In this document: in pieces, positions 18,265 through 23,382 of the stretch
Position numbering within the stretch: position 1 is the first letter of the stretch
Layout: every line of letters begins with the position of its first letter
NCBI GenBank assembly: GCA_017622575.1
Contig: JAGAQU010000103.1
Span: 1 to 64,000 of the forward strand
From: Lachnospiraceae bacterium
GTDB lineage: Bacteria > Bacillota > Clostridia > Lachnospirales > Lachnospiraceae
DNA: 64,000 nucleotides
Reading direction: 5' to 3'
Position numbers and translations under genes: made by a program
The notes under the pieces: generated by a model
Seen by the model: the letters and a program-made list of their open reading frames with translations, nothing else
Told to the model about the DNA's origin: nothing
The model's database searches: none

Positions 18265-20043
18265 TTATAGCGGCAGAGTCATCTGCGCCATATGGAGCCT
18301 GTAATAGGCTCCTTTTTTTGCGATCAATTCACGGGCATTGCCTTCCTCCACGATGCCGCCGTTATCAATGACAAAAATCCGATCAGCCTTCTGGATCGTG
18401 GAAAGTCTGTGGGCAATGACAAAGGAGGTGCGTCCCTTTAAGAGGGCTTCGATTCCTTCCTGTACCAAAAGCTCAGTGCCTGTATCAATACTGGAGGTGG
18501 CTTCATCCAGGATCAGAATACGGGGATCGGAAACCATGGTTCTTGCGAAAGCAAGAAGCTGTTTCTGACCGATGGAGAGACCGCCTCCCCGCTCGGAAAG
18601 CACCGTGTCATATCCTTTTTCCAGCTTACAGATAAATTCGTGGGCATGTACGGCCTTGGCAGCGCTGATGATCTCCTCATCGGTTGCATCCAGCTTGCCG
18701 TAGCGGATATTATCTTTAATAGTTCCGGTAAAGAGGAAATTGTCCTGTGTCATGATTCCCATCTGTTTTCTCAGACTCTCAATGGTCACATCTCTGACAT
18801 CACAGCCGTCAATGGAGACAATCCCTTCCTGAACATCATAAAAGCGGCTGATCAGATTTACGATGGTAGTTTTGCCGGCACCGGTAGGTCCTACAAGAGC
18901 GATGGTTTCTCCCGGAGTGATGGTGAAGGAAACATTGTTCAGTACTTTTACCTCGTTATCATAGGAAAAGCTTACATTGCAAAAGTCTACCCGTCCTTTT
19001 ATGGTTGGCATTTCTCTTACCGTTCCCTGATCTGTGATCTCAGCCCTGGTATCCATGATCTCAAAAATCCGTTCCGCAGCAGCCAGGTTGGTGATAATCT
19101 GATTATAGAAGTTGCTGAGATTCATAATAGGATTCCAGAACATACCGATGTAGGTGCCGAAGGCGATAAAGGTACCGACACTTACCCTCTTGGTTCCCAG
19201 GATCATGATTCCCACAAAGTAGAGTGCGGCAATGCCGAATCCCCAGCAGAAATCAATGACAGATCCCAGGGCGTCATTGATCCTGCAGGCATTCACGAAG
19301 GACTGCCTGTGCTGCGTGGTGAGGTCATGAAAGGTTTCACTTGTTTCCTTTTCTGCCGTAAAGCTTTGAATGATCCTCATTCCTGACATATTTTCGTGAA
19401 CAAAGGCGTTCAGGTTGGAGGATTTTTTTCGTACAATCTGCCATCTCTTATGGGAAAAAGTCTGTATCAGCCATAAGCCCGCAGCCATGATCGGTAGACT
19501 GCAAAGGGCAGCTGCGGCAAGGATCGGATCCTTCATAAACATGATGACAGCGACAGCCACAACGGTGATAAAGTCCGGAATCAGGGTGGTGACAAAATTG
19601 TTCAGAACATCCTTGAGTGAGTTGATGTCACCGATGATACGTGCCAGTATTTTTCCGGTAGGGCGGCTGTCAAAAAAGTGAAAGTCCAGCGTTTGAATAT
19701 GGGTGTACAGTTCCTGTCTGATCGTGACAAGAATACTGTTGCACACCTTTGCCATCAAAAACATCCGAAGTTTAATGCCGCCGATCATCAAAAGATTCAG
19801 TGCGACAGCAAGAAGGGTCAAAAGGCAAAGGCCCTTGAGATTTTTTGAAACAATATAGTTGTCAATGGCGGATTCGATGAACAGCGGATTCAGCAGGGAA
19901 ACCACTACACAGAAAGCCATAATGACAAGCACTGCGGCAATCGTTGATTTGTAGGAGAGCAGATAAGCAAACAGGCGCTTTAGCGTTTGCAGCTTACCAA
20001 TCTGTATGGATTGCTCATCCTCTTTGTAAGAATTAACACTCAT
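18265..20043 (-). CDS. ABC exporter half-transporter, subunit 2 (consensus ATPase site)
   Basis: Type IV ABC exporter: six membrane spans (about 35-320) followed by an ATPase domain. 592 aa from ATG 20043, which has GGGAGGG seven bases upstream; the frame opens about 350 bp earlier, but that part is the neighbour gene read out of frame. Walker A GPTGAGKTT, Walker B ILILDEATSS with the catalytic Glu, and a degenerate signature LSIGQKQ (Ile for the second Gly). Paired with the upstream gene, whose Walker B lacks Glu, this is the heterodimeric exporter pattern of BmrCD, LmrCD and TM287/288. The two genes overlap by 11 bp. The substrate is likely a drug, lipid or peptide. Confidence 0.93.
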   Translation of the reverse strand: MSVNSYKEDEQSIQIGKLQTLKRLFAYLLSYKSTIAAVLVIMAFCVVVSLLNPLFIESAIDNYIVSKNLKGLCLLTLLAVALNLLMIGGIKLRMFLMAKVCNSILVTIRQELYTHIQTLDFHFFDSRPTGKILARIIGDINSLKDVLNNFVTTLIPDFITVVAVAVIMFMKDPILAAAALCSLPIMAAGLWLIQTFSHKRWQIVRKKSSNLNAFVHENMSGMRIIQSFTAEKETSETFHDLTTQHRQSFVNACRINDALGSVIDFCWGFGIAALYFVGIMILGTKRVSVGTFIAFGTYIGMFWNPIMNLSNFYNQIITNLAAAERIFEIMDTRAEITDQGTVREMPTIKGRVDFCNVSFSYDNEVKVLNNVSFTITPGETIALVGPTGAGKTTIVNLISRFYDVQEGIVSIDGCDVRDVTIESLRKQMGIMTQDNFLFTGTIKDNIRYGKLDATDEEIISAAKAVHAHEFICKLEKGYDTVLSERGGGLSIGQKQLLAFARTMVSDPRILILDEATSSIDTGTELLVQEGIEALLKGRTSFVIAHRLSTIQKADRIFVIDNGGIVEEGNARELIAKKGAYYRLHMAQMTLPL

Positions 20044-21784
20044 GGAATTCCCTCCCTTCCTGATTTTGAATGAATTCTCCATATTGAGCGATATAAGTCT
20101 GATAGTATAGTCCTTTTTTCTCAAGCAGGCTTTGATGTGTGCCCCGCTCTGCAATAGAACCGTTTTCCAGGATAATGATCTCATCGGCATGACAGACTGC
20201 ACTGATCCTGTGACCGATAATGATCTTGGTTGTATCCGGAAGATGGCGGAGTGTCTCGTGAATGCTCTGCTCCGTTTCCATATCAAGAGCAGAAGTGGAG
20301 TCATCCAGCACCAGAACAGGGTCCTTCTTTGCCAGAGCTCTGGCGATGGTGATACGCTGCTTCTGACCGCCGGAAAGACCGACTCCGCGTTCACCGATCA
20401 CGGTGTCATACTGGTTTGCCATGCGCTCTATAAAATCCTTTGCCATGGCATCTCCGGCGGCATCCTTTACCGCCTGAAGAGAAATGCTGTCCTTTTTTCC
20501 GAGCTTCACATTTTCCGTGATCGTGTCAGAGAACAGAAAAACATCCTGCATCACGAGAGAGATGGAGCTTCGAAGCTGTTTCAGGGATAACTGCCTGATA
20601 TCCACATCATCCAGATAAATGGCACCATCCGTGACATCGTAAAGACGCTGCAACAGATGGATAATGGAGCTTTTTCCGGCACCGGTGGCTCCCATAATGC
20701 CGATTGTCTTACCGGGCTGAATCGTAAAGGAAATGTCATGAAGGATTTCATGACCGTCCTCCTTGTGGAAAGAAACGTGAGAAAACTCGATTTTCCCGTT
20801 TAAATGGTCAAGAACTACGGGTTCTTCCGGCTCTGTAATGGTTGGCTTTTCCGCATAAATACGTTTCAGCTTTCGGTTGGAAGCAATGGCGCTTGAGAGT
20901 GAGTTGGTAAGCCAGCCCAGCATTTCCATGGGCCAGACGATATTCATGGAATACTCGATAAATGCCGTAAGTGTGCCCAGTGTGATCTCCCCGTTCATCA
21001 CCAGAAGTCCTCCCGATAAAAGAGTGGCAAGGGGAAGCAGCTTGGTGATCAGGTTGATATAGGGATAATATTTGACAAACACACGAGACTGCTCCATGTT
21101 CAGCTCATAATATCTCTTGTTGTGGGAAAGAAATTTGGAAATTTCATATTTCTCCCGTGCAAATGCTTTTACAGTGCGCACACCGGCAAGATTTTCCTCC
21201 GCAACCGTGTTGAGTACAGCGTTCTCCTCACTGATGGCATCATAGACAGAGCCCAGCTTATGTTCCATAAAAATGGCAATGAAAGCGGACAGCATCATGC
21301 AAAAGGTGGGAAGAATGGATAGCTTCCAGCTCAGGCTGTACATGCAGAAAAGCACAATAGTGGTGTGCAGGACAACCTCTATTATGAGCATGCCCACATA
21401 GGAAAGTGCATCCCAGATTCTGTCGATATCGTCCTTGATACGGCTCATCAGTTCACCGGTTCCTGTGCGGTCAAAAAAATCGGCACTTAAGGACTGAATA
21501 TGGTTAAAGAGATTTTCCCGTATTTCACTCATGATACCGGATCCCACCACATCAAACGTAAATTCCTTGGTGTATTGGAAGATACAGCGTCCGATTCCCA
21601 CACAAAGGATGCCAAGGAGCAGAAATATAAGCTTTTCTCTGTGACCGCCAATGATCACATCATCCACGATGCTTTTGGTAAGCCGTGGAGAGAGCATGTC
21701 TAAAGACACGCTGATCACCATGGAAGCGATTGCAAAAAGATAGGCAAATTTATGCTTCCAGATGTAAAATGATAGTTTTTTCAA
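20033..21784 (-). CDS. ABC exporter half-transporter, subunit 1 (degenerate Walker B)
   Basis: Partner of the gene downstream, 583 aa. I place the start at TTG 21784 (LKKLSFYIWKHK) because GGAGG stands 5-6 bases before it; the TTG at 21799 would overlap that site. Six membrane spans, then Walker A GATGAGKSS, canonical signature LSGGQKQR, and Walker B VLVLDDSTSALD with Asp instead of the catalytic Glu. This mutation plus the partner's altered signature (LSIGQ) would form the one inactive nucleotide site of a heterodimeric exporter. Its mRNA leader carries a 30-codon ORF and a terminator, which points to attenuation control. Confidence 0.93.
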   Translation of the reverse strand: MKKLSFYIWKHKFAYLFAIASMVISVSLDMLSPRLTKSIVDDVIIGGHREKLIFLLLGILCVGIGRCIFQYTKEFTFDVVGSGIMSEIRENLFNHIQSLSADFFDRTGTGELMSRIKDDIDRIWDALSYVGMLIIEVVLHTTIVLFCMYSLSWKLSILPTFCMMLSAFIAIFMEHKLGSVYDAISEENAVLNTVAEENLAGVRTVKAFAREKYEISKFLSHNKRYYELNMEQSRVFVKYYPYINLITKLLPLATLLSGGLLVMNGEITLGTLTAFIEYSMNIVWPMEMLGWLTNSLSSAIASNRKLKRIYAEKPTITEPEEPVVLDHLNGKIEFSHVSFHKEDGHEILHDISFTIQPGKTIGIMGATGAGKSSIIHLLQRLYDVTDGAIYLDDVDIRQLSLKQLRSSISLVMQDVFLFSDTITENVKLGKKDSISLQAVKDAAGDAMAKDFIERMANQYDTVIGERGVGLSGGQKQRITIARALAKKDPVLVLDDSTSALDMETEQSIHETLRHLPDTTKIIIGHRISAVCHADEIIILENGSIAERGTHQSLLEKKGLYYQTYIAQYGEFIQNQEGREFHEC

Positions 21785-21851: not shown

Positions 21852-21885
21852 AAAAAAAGCTGCCATGGAATTACCATGACAGCTT
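21852..21885 (-). terminator. Intrinsic terminator in the ABC exporter leader (attenuator)
   Basis: On the minus-strand transcript AAGCTGTCATGG, loop, CCATGGCAGCTT (one mismatch) runs into seven U. In plus coordinates the arms are 21857-21868 and 21874-21885. It stands between the leader ORF and the exporter start, so it must be bypassed for exporter expression. The segment TGACACTGCT (21921-21930, minus) can pair with the 5' arm (AGC/TGTCA, 2-nt bulge) as an antiterminator. Confidence 0.85.
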
Positions 21886-21943
21886 AGTACTTTTCGTATC
21901 TGAAGCGGAACTTTCGAAAAAGCAGTGTCAGAAAAGACCGGCT

Positions 21944-22036
21944 TCATGTAAATAAGCAGGGAGGTAATTTCATCATTGAATCAGCTATTGTATTGTCAAA
22001 AGTGCCATAAATAGTAAATAAATGTAATCTCGTCAT
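21944..22036 (-). CDS. 30-residue leader peptide of the ABC exporter operon
   Basis: Short ORF from ATG 22036 to TGA 21944, with a near-perfect ribosome site (GGAAAGGAGG) on the minus strand. The peptide starts MTRLHLFTIYGTFDN and ends KLPPCLFT. No protein family is recognisable and no signal peptide is obvious. Its stop codon is the first part of TGAAGCCGG, which can pair with CCGCTTCA (21901-21908) just before the terminator. Translation through the ORF would therefore change which hairpin forms. This is the layout of bmrB upstream of bmrCD in B. subtilis, where ribosome-targeting antibiotics cause readthrough. The peptide probably acts in cis, with its translation as the signal. Confidence 0.75.
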   Translation of the reverse strand: MTRLHLFTIYGTFDNTIADSMMKLPPCLFT

Positions 22037-22080
22037 GATTCGTTACCTCCTTTCCTGAATACTTGTCATTAGTTGCAAAA

Positions 22081-22136
22081 GTCATGTGGCTGACGCCGCA
22101 TGACATAACCATACGACAGACGGAAATATTTGTCAA
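22081..22136 (-). promoter_or_regulatory. Promoter of the ABC exporter leader, with inverted repeat at the start
   Basis: Minus strand TTGACA (22131-22136), 17-bp spacer, TATGGT (22108-22113). An inverted repeat with 10-nt arms (9 of 10 matching, 22081-22104, arms GTCATGTGGC and GCCGCATGAC) covers the expected start. It is either an operator or a 5' hairpin in the leader RNA. Confidence 0.7.
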
Positions 22137-22209: not shown

Positions 22210-23382
22210 ATGGTAACATTTCTTTCAAGATTTTTGATAAAAGACTATAAAAATACAACAGACACGAAGGTACGCCAGGCATACGGCATGCTCTGCGGAG
22301 CGGTGGGAATCGTGCTGAACATCTTTCTGTTTATCGGGAAGGCACTTGCCGGCTATATCAGCGGCTCCATCGCCATCACAGCCGATGCCTTTAACAACCT
22401 TTCCGATGCCGGTTCTTCCGTAATCACACTTGTTGGGTTTAAGATGGCAGGTCAGAAGCCTGACAGCGATCATCCCTTCGGACATGGAAGAATTGAATAT
22501 ATTTCGGGTTTTCTTGTTTCTGTTGTGATTTTGATCATGGCCTTTGAGCTTTTGAAATCCTCCGTGGAAAAAATACTGCATCCTTCTGCCATTGAATCAG
22601 GACCTGTGATTATCGGAATTCTGGTGGCATCTATTCTGGTGAAGGTATACATGTTTCTCTATAACAGAGGAATCAGCAAAAAGATTGACAGTGCGGCCAT
22701 GGATGCAACGGCGAAGGACAGCTTAAGTGATACTGTTGCAACTTTTGCTGTACTTGGCACCACACTTCTTGCCCAGTTTACCGGTTTGCAGATCGACGGC
22801 TACTGCGGTGTGGTTGTGGCAGTTTTTGTTTTCCTGGCAGGATTCGGTGCCGCAAAGGAAACCATAGGGCCCCTGCTCGGTCAGCCACCGGAACCGGAAT
22901 TTGTGGAGCAGATCGATAAGATCATTATGGGATATAAGAATCAGGGAGTGCTTGGAATTCATGACCTTGTAGTACATAATTACGGACCTGGACGCGTTAT
23001 GCTCTCGGTGCATGTGGAAGTGCCTTCCGACGGAGATATTATGGCACTTCATGATATAATCGATACGATTGAGCACAGGCTTGGAAAAGAGCTGAATTGC
23101 AGTGCTGTGATCCATATGGATCCTGTGTGTCTTGATGATGAACTGACAAATGAATTAAAACAGAAGGTGGCAGATATCATATCCGGTATGGAAGGAAAGG
23201 TAACCTTCCATGATTTCAGAACGGTTCCCGGACCTACCCATACCAATCTGATCTTTGATGTGGTGGTTCCCTTTGATTATCCCATGTCCGACCATGAGGT
23301 GGTGGAGTACATACAGAATAAAATTTCTGAAGTGAATGAAAATTATTTCGCAGTGATCGATGTGGATAAGGCGTATGCGTAA
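22210..23382 (+). CDS. Cation diffusion facilitator (CDF) metal exporter
   Basis: Six-span metal/proton antiporter, 390 aa. Metal-site residues are in TADAFNNLSDAGSS (span 2) and ATAKDSLSDTVATF (span 5), giving NxxxD and DxxxD patterns. These resemble manganese-type CDFs more than the HxxxD zinc type, so Mn(II) is the better guess. The HPFGHGRIEY loop is conserved in the family. A cytoplasmic C-terminal domain follows from about residue 215 and continues beyond the usual length as what looks like a second copy (about 310-390). GAGGAG lies at 22194-22199. The following gene overlaps its 3' end. Confidence 0.9.
   Translation: MVTFLSRFLIKDYKNTTDTKVRQAYGMLCGAVGIVLNIFLFIGKALAGYISGSIAITADAFNNLSDAGSSVITLVGFKMAGQKPDSDHPFGHGRIEYISGFLVSVVILIMAFELLKSSVEKILHPSAIESGPVIIGILVASILVKVYMFLYNRGISKKIDSAAMDATAKDSLSDTVATFAVLGTTLLAQFTGLQIDGYCGVVVAVFVFLAGFGAAKETIGPLLGQPPEPEFVEQIDKIIMGYKNQGVLGIHDLVVHNYGPGRVMLSVHVEVPSDGDIMALHDIIDTIEHRLGKELNCSAVIHMDPVCLDDELTNELKQKVADIISGMEGKVTFHDFRTVPGPTHTNLIFDVVVPFDYPMSDHEVVEYIQNKISEVNENYFAVIDVDKAYA

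Follow-up and report, generated by a model that had tools for sequence, protein, structure and literature searches.

A probable ribosome-gated attenuator upstream of a BmrCD-like ABC exporter in Lachnospiraceae, with the leader Shine-Dalgarno sequence as the proposed anti-antiterminator

We describe a leader that lies upstream of the genes for a BmrCD-like ABC exporter in Lachnospiraceae and that is well supported, judging from its sequence, as a ribosome-controlled transcription attenuator. It is probably a ribosome-gated switch in which the Shine-Dalgarno sequence (SD) of the leader open reading frame (ORF) itself serves as the anti-antiterminator. The leader was analyzed in a window of 64,000 nucleotides, the whole stretch of DNA examined (Lachnospiraceae bacterium, assembly GCA_017622575.1, contig JAGAQU010000103.1, positions 1 to 64,000), and compared with leaders of orthologous exporters. 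A short, translated-looking ORF with an SD lies upstream of an intrinsic terminator and before the regulated gene, and terminator and antiterminator pairings that involve the ORF region and exclude one another are conserved across 86 to 88 leaders. An earlier note on this DNA had proposed a translated-leader attenuator acting on a BmrCD-like exporter; the comparison of leaders supports that kind of control.

Anatomy of the leader and the exporter genes

The promoter, the 30-codon ORF with a strong SD and the intrinsic terminator that the earlier note had recognized on the minus strand are all present (Table 1). The terminator begins approximately 58 nt past the leader stop codon, and approximately 72 nt separate it from the probable exporter start, so that its earlier placement directly before the exporter was correct in order and approximate in distance. 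The pairing partner of the SD is found approximately 75 nt downstream of it, at the end of the 30-codon ORF. The promoter-like match alone occurs at chance frequency (21 found versus 19.4 expected in 9 kb scanned). In 80 of 88 leaders, TTGACA was present no more than 130 nt ahead of the leader ORF. The whole leader is, by sequence comparison, far beyond chance, since the set of promoter, SD, short ORF and terminator is seen repeatedly upstream of the orthologous exporter across Lachnospiraceae. No family of Rfam 15 scored above its gathering score anywhere in the window; the best weak match was RcsR1 (E 0.061, 21 bits versus a gathering score of 60).

Both exporter genes encode type I (TMD-NBD) half transporters. 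In gene 1, the catalytic Glu of Walker B is replaced by Asp (LVLDD). This motif and the LSIGQ signature of gene 2 are the usual marks of heterodimeric exporters, so the proteins are read from these motifs as a BmrCD-like heterodimer with one degenerate site; the earlier note had also called the exporter heterodimeric. The BmrC chain (YheI; 8t1p_C) matched with an E value of 1.3e-91 and was among the closest single-subunit bacterial structures found.

A divergent gene for a cation diffusion facilitator (CDF) transporter adjoins the leader (window positions 22210-23382, plus strand), and reverse-strand translations in L004 and L007 suggest that this neighbor is kept in the genus.

Table 1. Features of the leader and the exporter genes in the window
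Feature	Position	Strand	Remarks
Promoter, sigma-70-type, TTGACA-17-TATGGT	22108..22136	minus	10/12 consensus
Leader SD, AAAGGAGGTAA	22043..22053	minus	Proposed anti-antiterminator strand; GGAGGTAA at 22050-22043
Leader ORF, MTRLHLFTIYGTFDNTIADSMMKLPPCLFT	21944..22036	minus	ATG 22036; 30 codons plus stop (21946-21944)
ORF-end switch element, AAATTACCTCCC (21970-21959) plus GCTT (21957-21954)	21954..21970	minus	Proposed partners: SD, or terminator 5' arm and loop
Intrinsic terminator, AAGCTGTCATGG-TAATT-CCATGGCAGCTT	21857..21885	minus	12 pairs; T run approximately 21856-21850
Proposed antiterminator targets in the terminator: GGTAATT (5' arm and loop), AAGC	21875-21869, 21885-21882	minus	
ABC exporter subunit 1, TMD-NBD, BmrC/YheI-like	20033..21784	minus	Degenerate Walker B LVLDD; TTG start 21784 preceded by GGAGGAGG
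ABC exporter subunit 2, TMD-NBD	18265..20043	minus	Canonical Walker B, noncanonical signature LSIGQ; ATG approximately 20043, overlaps gene 1; start chosen by inspection

Leaders of orthologous exporters

A blastn search of the leader against genomes of the genus showed conservation in just two short stretches, one at the 3' end of the ORF and one at the terminator. Exporter orthologs, 67-100% identical across their first 333 residues, are carried by 25 of the 37 genomes of the genus, by many named Lachnospiraceae and by genomes elsewhere in the order. The named relatives include Parablautia intestinalis (L058), Eisenbergiella tayi (L071), Kineothrix alysoides (L074) and Roseburia hominis (L080); the leader region of P. 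intestinalis is identical to that of genus genome G028. After removal of near-duplicates, 95 non-redundant leaders remained, of which the 88 with a terminator recognized by the script were usable. For L021, L025, L068, L084 and L117, the terminator or element selected automatically was not the right one. L021 and L025 were recomputed separately, and L068, L084, L117 and L121 were excluded. In L068 and L084, the leader ORF extends into the terminator and its TAA stop codon lies in the terminator loop (GGTAATCCC); a terminating ribosome would therefore sit on the terminator itself.

Aligning the leaders of homologous exporters, which the earlier note had suggested as a check, revealed that the ORF and its pairings are conserved, through pairings other than those it had put forward. 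The relatives carry a leader ORF with a strong SD and a length of 24-44 aa (5th to 95th percentile). Its peptide is not conserved, and the view that the window peptide is uncharacterized was supported.

The leader SD pairs with the end of the ORF

The conserved stretch at the 3' end of the ORF is the reverse complement of the SD (GGAGGTAA versus TTACCTCC). This element occurs in all three reading frames (28, 43 and 10 leaders) and is read as KLPP, EITS/KIIS, NYLP or IASG depending on the species, which indicates that nucleotides rather than a peptide are conserved. On the aligned sequences, the RNA pairing is conserved and the peptide is not.

SD and ORF end covary. Their variants change together, as in GGAGGTAA/TTACCTCC, GGAGGCAG/TTGCCTCC, GCGAGGTAA/TTACCTCG, GTGAGGTAA/TTACCTCA and GAGAGGTAA/TTACCTCT, and L018 carries a register-shifted pair, GTAAGGAAGG/CCTTCCTTAC. 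The duplex of SD and element has a mean energy of -14.0 kcal/mol in 88 leaders, compared with -11.8 kcal/mol when SDs were swapped in from other leaders and -8.8 kcal/mol with shuffled ORF tails; the own SD was better than the swap mean in 73 of the 88. For the covariation test, 62 leaders were anchored on the invariant GAGG/CCTC core. Pairing at SD positions -1 and +4 was more common than in any of 1000 shuffles, and the mutual information at positions +6 and +7 was matched by at most 1 of 1000. Pairing in register reached 92.7%, versus 35-58% when the strands were slid by 1-4 nt.

The tree-based evidence for compensatory change is the weakest part of the covariation case. On the exporter tree, independent double changes were few (8 kept the pairing and 3 did not), and their number was within the range of leaf shuffles (mean 5.2, maximum 10). 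A strict tree-based proof was dropped because there were too few independent double events.

The end of the ORF also pairs with the terminator

The 5' arm and loop of the terminator carry an SD-like copy, GGTAATTTC, which is complementary to the same element, so that the two pairings exclude each other. A second helix often follows, in which nucleotides past the element pair with the base of the terminator arm, as in L028 (AATTACCAGGCTGCT with GCAGCCATGGTAATC) and L139 (TTTACCTCGGG with CCCCTAGGTAAA). The duplex of element and terminator averages -12.1 kcal/mol versus -5.9 kcal/mol with shuffled arms, and it was at or below the 5% level in 63 of 88 leaders. When the RNA from the element to the terminator 5' arm was folded with the SD omitted, the element formed a mean of 10.2 expected pairs with the arm, compared with 4.9 for shuffled arms and 0.7 for the spacer between element and arm; at least 5 such pairs were expected in 80 of 86 leaders. 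The corresponding values for the window itself were 11.2 pairs for the element and 0.1 for the spacer, which contains the antiterminator strand proposed in the earlier note.

Masking the start site was evaluated at the moment when the terminator arm and loop are made. It lowered the pairs between element and SD from 7.6 to 0 and raised those between element and terminator arm from 4.2 to 9.3, with a gain of at least 3 element-terminator pairs in 56 of 86 leaders. Once the terminator was complete, it won at equilibrium in nearly all leaders, and the element-terminator pairs fell to 1.1. Good element-terminator pairing was not found in some leaders, e.g., L027, L074, L085 and L115, under the automatic choices of element and terminator.

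In the window, the pairing of element and terminator is modest (7 + 4 bp), and the loop GGTAATTCC is one T shorter than the family GGTAATTTCC. When the whole 5' UTR of the window was folded, this pairing reached at most 0.17 pairs even with the start masked. The window copy is thus predicted to pair more weakly than most relatives, which is a real uncertainty for this particular leader. Another pairing, of 5' UTR TGACAAGTA (22060-22069) with TACTAAGCTGTCA (21877-21889) on the 5' side of the terminator, was prominent in the window fold of the minus strand; it was rejected, as p ≤ 0.05 was reached in 6 of 88 leaders, which is at chance level.

Proposed mechanism

We propose a competition among three RNA segments, namely the leader SD (S), the 3' end of the ORF (E) and the terminator 5' arm and loop (T). 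Pairing of S with E would leave the terminator free and the operon off, and pairing of E with T would block the terminator and turn the operon on. With no ribosome on the leader, S and E would pair, the SD would be closed as well, and transcription would stop before the exporter. During normal translation, the ribosome would depart from the SD and pass over E, and termination would again prevail. A ribosome held at initiation or within approximately the first five codons would cover S and leave E single-stranded; E could then capture T during its transcription, allowing RNA polymerase to enter the exporter genes. We hold this reading with fair, though far from full, confidence.

The switching would have to be kinetic, because the complete terminator wins thermodynamically; attenuators normally act kinetically. 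Only ribosomes that are held on the start region should be sensed, since in the window fold with a ribosome at codon 6 the SD is free and the helix of SD and element returns. The ribosome position that the earlier note had taken as the trigger, the stop region, is accordingly revised to the SD and start region; if the ribosome stood at the stop codon, part of the antiterminator strand would be covered and termination would be favored. Lincosamides, pleuromutilins or similar inhibitors are candidate holding agents. Such an antibiotic would be the signal and presumably also the compound exported, which would place the inducers among the substrates of the pump.

Alternative explanations

That the switch responds to starvation, ribosome-assembly defects, low initiation capacity or some further non-antibiotic signal is unlikely and is the alternative that survives best. 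Similar leaders precede rsgA, which encodes a 30S-maturation GTPase, and a PF09818 ATPase, and ribosome-assembly defects also induce vmlR (PMC9226507). However, fewer initiations alone would close S on E and lower expression, so a ribosome held on the SD would still be needed, and the main target gene encodes a multidrug-type exporter.

It is improbable that the leader does not switch at all, i.e., that the hairpin of SD and ORF end merely limits leader translation and that the terminator is a constitutive partial terminator or an insulator. The pairing of SD and element is the stable predicted ground state in the window fold, as this reading would have it, and the complete terminator dominates at equilibrium. 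Nevertheless, the reading leaves unexplained why the same ORF-end strand is complementary to the terminator 5' arm and loop (63/88 and 80/86 leaders, above) and why pairs of element and terminator are rewired together in distant taxa.

An arrest peptide is less probable again: KLPPCLF at the end of the ORF would stall the ribosome with the drug, and the stall would expose the antiterminator. Within the genus of the window, K-L-P-x-[C/L]-L is indeed common at the ORF end in a fixed frame. Outside the genus, the same nucleotides stand in other frames (EITS, KIIS, IASG, LPRD) and no peptide is shared; the PDCL variants are explained by an extended TGACTG:CAGTCA pairing with the terminator arm, and element E would lie under any ribosome stalled on KLPP. 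A conserved KLPP arrest peptide was therefore rejected, as the element shifts among frames (28/43/10) instead of keeping to one.

The wiring of the earlier note, in which a stop-codon hairpin of TGAAGCCGG (21946-21938) and CCGCTTCA (21908-21901) sequesters TGACACTGCT (21930-21921) until a ribosome at the stop frees TGACACTGCT for the terminator 5' arm, is hardly tenable: the segments exist and can pair, and part of the stop hairpin appears in predicted window folds, but hairpin and strand are absent from all relatives inspected except a 98%-identical sister, 5 of 74 leaders had stop-region stems with p ≤ 0.05, roughly as many as chance would give, and TGACACTGCT formed 0.00-0.01 expected pairs with the arm in every state tested in window folds.

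Distribution and meaning of the leader

The scheme of SD, element and terminator is also kept, with rewired letters, by some exporter homologs outside the class. In L158, the SD GGAGGTGGGGAT is matched by the ORF end ATCCCCACCTCC, and one rewired pair of SD and element outside the class comprises 12 bp. In L157 and L162, the ORF end matches the SD GGTAGGG by CCCTGCC and the terminator sequence GGGCTAT (L157) or GGGCTGT by ATAGCCC.

Genome-wide counts were obtained by exact-pattern searches, which find GGAGGTAA-type leaders only. Such leaders were found before the exporter and, in four other genomes, before genes for an RsgA-like GTPase or an ABC-class ATPase; all four have a promoter, a short ORF ending in ATTACCTCG and a terminator. 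These searches also returned unrelated matches without the leader layout, and the reversed control pattern scored in some genomes, so single pattern matches mean little without the leader anatomy.

Two of the four, from two genera (L194, G923:C90:6807-6873; L198, G1098:C59:22715-22784), precede a gene for an RsgA-like ribosome-dependent GTPase (TIGR00157) and show a TTGACA promoter, the SD GGAGGTAATT, the ORF end ATTACCTCG and a terminator with a GGTAT loop. A similar leader precedes an ABC-class ATPase (PF09818 in L193) in two genera (L193, G879:C39:60818-60879; L220, G420:C46:19759-19820), with nearly identical terminators, CCGTGGCAGTTTGTCACGG.

Two further arrangements were observed. Upstream of RsgA-like genes in L204, L205, L207, L208 and L209, a uORF of 8-12 codons has the SD CGAAAGG or TGAAAGG, its complement CCTTTCG or CCTTTCA lies past the stop codon, and a GTGTTTTTTTT-type terminator comes next in most; this resembles sequestration of the SD by a partner located beyond the ORF. 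In another family of exporter homologs (L167-L169, L171), the codons GTGTTCTTAAA of a conserved 7-codon uORF, MIKGVLK, are complementary to TTTAAGAACAC farther downstream, and a hairpin follows; the homologous exporter thus appears to have a different attenuator.

The recurrence of the leader suggests that reading SD occupancy is a reusable device. It is conceivable, though we would stop short of calling it likely, that this is a general clostridial attenuator class, in which the SD is the anti-antiterminator, its partner lies at or just after the ORF end in any frame and the terminator arm mimics the SD. Such a class would sense any ribosome held at initiation or early elongation regardless of the peptide and would have been reused for exporters, rsgA-like GTPases and the ABC-class ATPase.

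The proposed wiring would show concretely how exporters are intrinsically controlled throughout the Lachnospiraceae (E. tayi, K. alysoides, Parablautia, R. hominis), a family that is dominant in the gut. The leader is easily missed, since neither the peptide nor the RNA sequence is conserved and the three-way complementarity alone marks it. If correct, the reading predicts that the antibiotics inducing the pump are those holding ribosomes at the start, and it provides a search rule for further switches: a copy of the SD in the terminator arm together with its complement at the ORF end.

Comparison with known attenuators

The best-known leader switches that respond to antibiotics are those of Bacillus, Listeria and Streptococcus. 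In a genome-wide survey of attenuators, ABC transporters are the family with the most candidates (PMC2965389). The nearest known systems are bmrB, vmlR, rli53/rli59 and patA; bmrB and vmlR, the closest precedents, respond experimentally to ribosome inhibitors (PMC4191407, PMC9226507).

The bmrB-bmrCD attenuator of Bacillus subtilis shares with the window leader a translated leader ORF, a terminator, a predicted antiterminator and anti-antiterminator, and a heterodimeric ABC exporter (PMC4191407). The same paper describes bmrB as 53 aa long, with a coding sequence that contains the terminator, the antiterminator and the anti-antiterminator (nt 60-162), and calls the role of the anti-antiterminator unclear. 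In the window leader, by contrast, the terminator follows the ORF, and the SD, which lies upstream of the ORF and pairs with its end, is the proposed anti-antiterminator.

For patA of Streptococcus pneumoniae, a terminator, an antiterminator and an anti-antiterminator are likewise predicted before a heterodimeric ABC exporter, whereas the accessible text describes no leader ORF or SD switch (PMC4319486). Listeria rli53/lmo0919 and rli59/lmo1652, compared here by their description in a review, are similar as antibiotic-responsive riboregulators before ABC genes (PMC8079631). The review places rli59 before an ABC transporter gene and has it respond to several inhibitors; rli53 differs in its 3-aa ORF, which overlaps the anti-antiterminator.

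A parallel in logic is vmlR of B. subtilis, which has the same scheme of anti-antiterminator, antiterminator and terminator and is induced by lincomycin- or retapamulin-stalled initiating ribosomes (PMC9226507). Start-region sensing, as proposed here, would fit these two stallers. Unlike the window leader, with its 30-codon ORF and an SD that is itself a pairing strand, vmlR is described there as having a 3-codon uORF inside hairpin SL-1 and a single-stranded SD, and it controls an ABC-F protein. Within the open-licence literature available on bmrB, vmlR, rli53/rli59 and patA, a leader SD acting as the anti-antiterminator strand is not described. The ribosome-binding site of the E. coli trp leader can also be masked by downstream leader RNA, and SD masking in a leader is therefore not without precedent.
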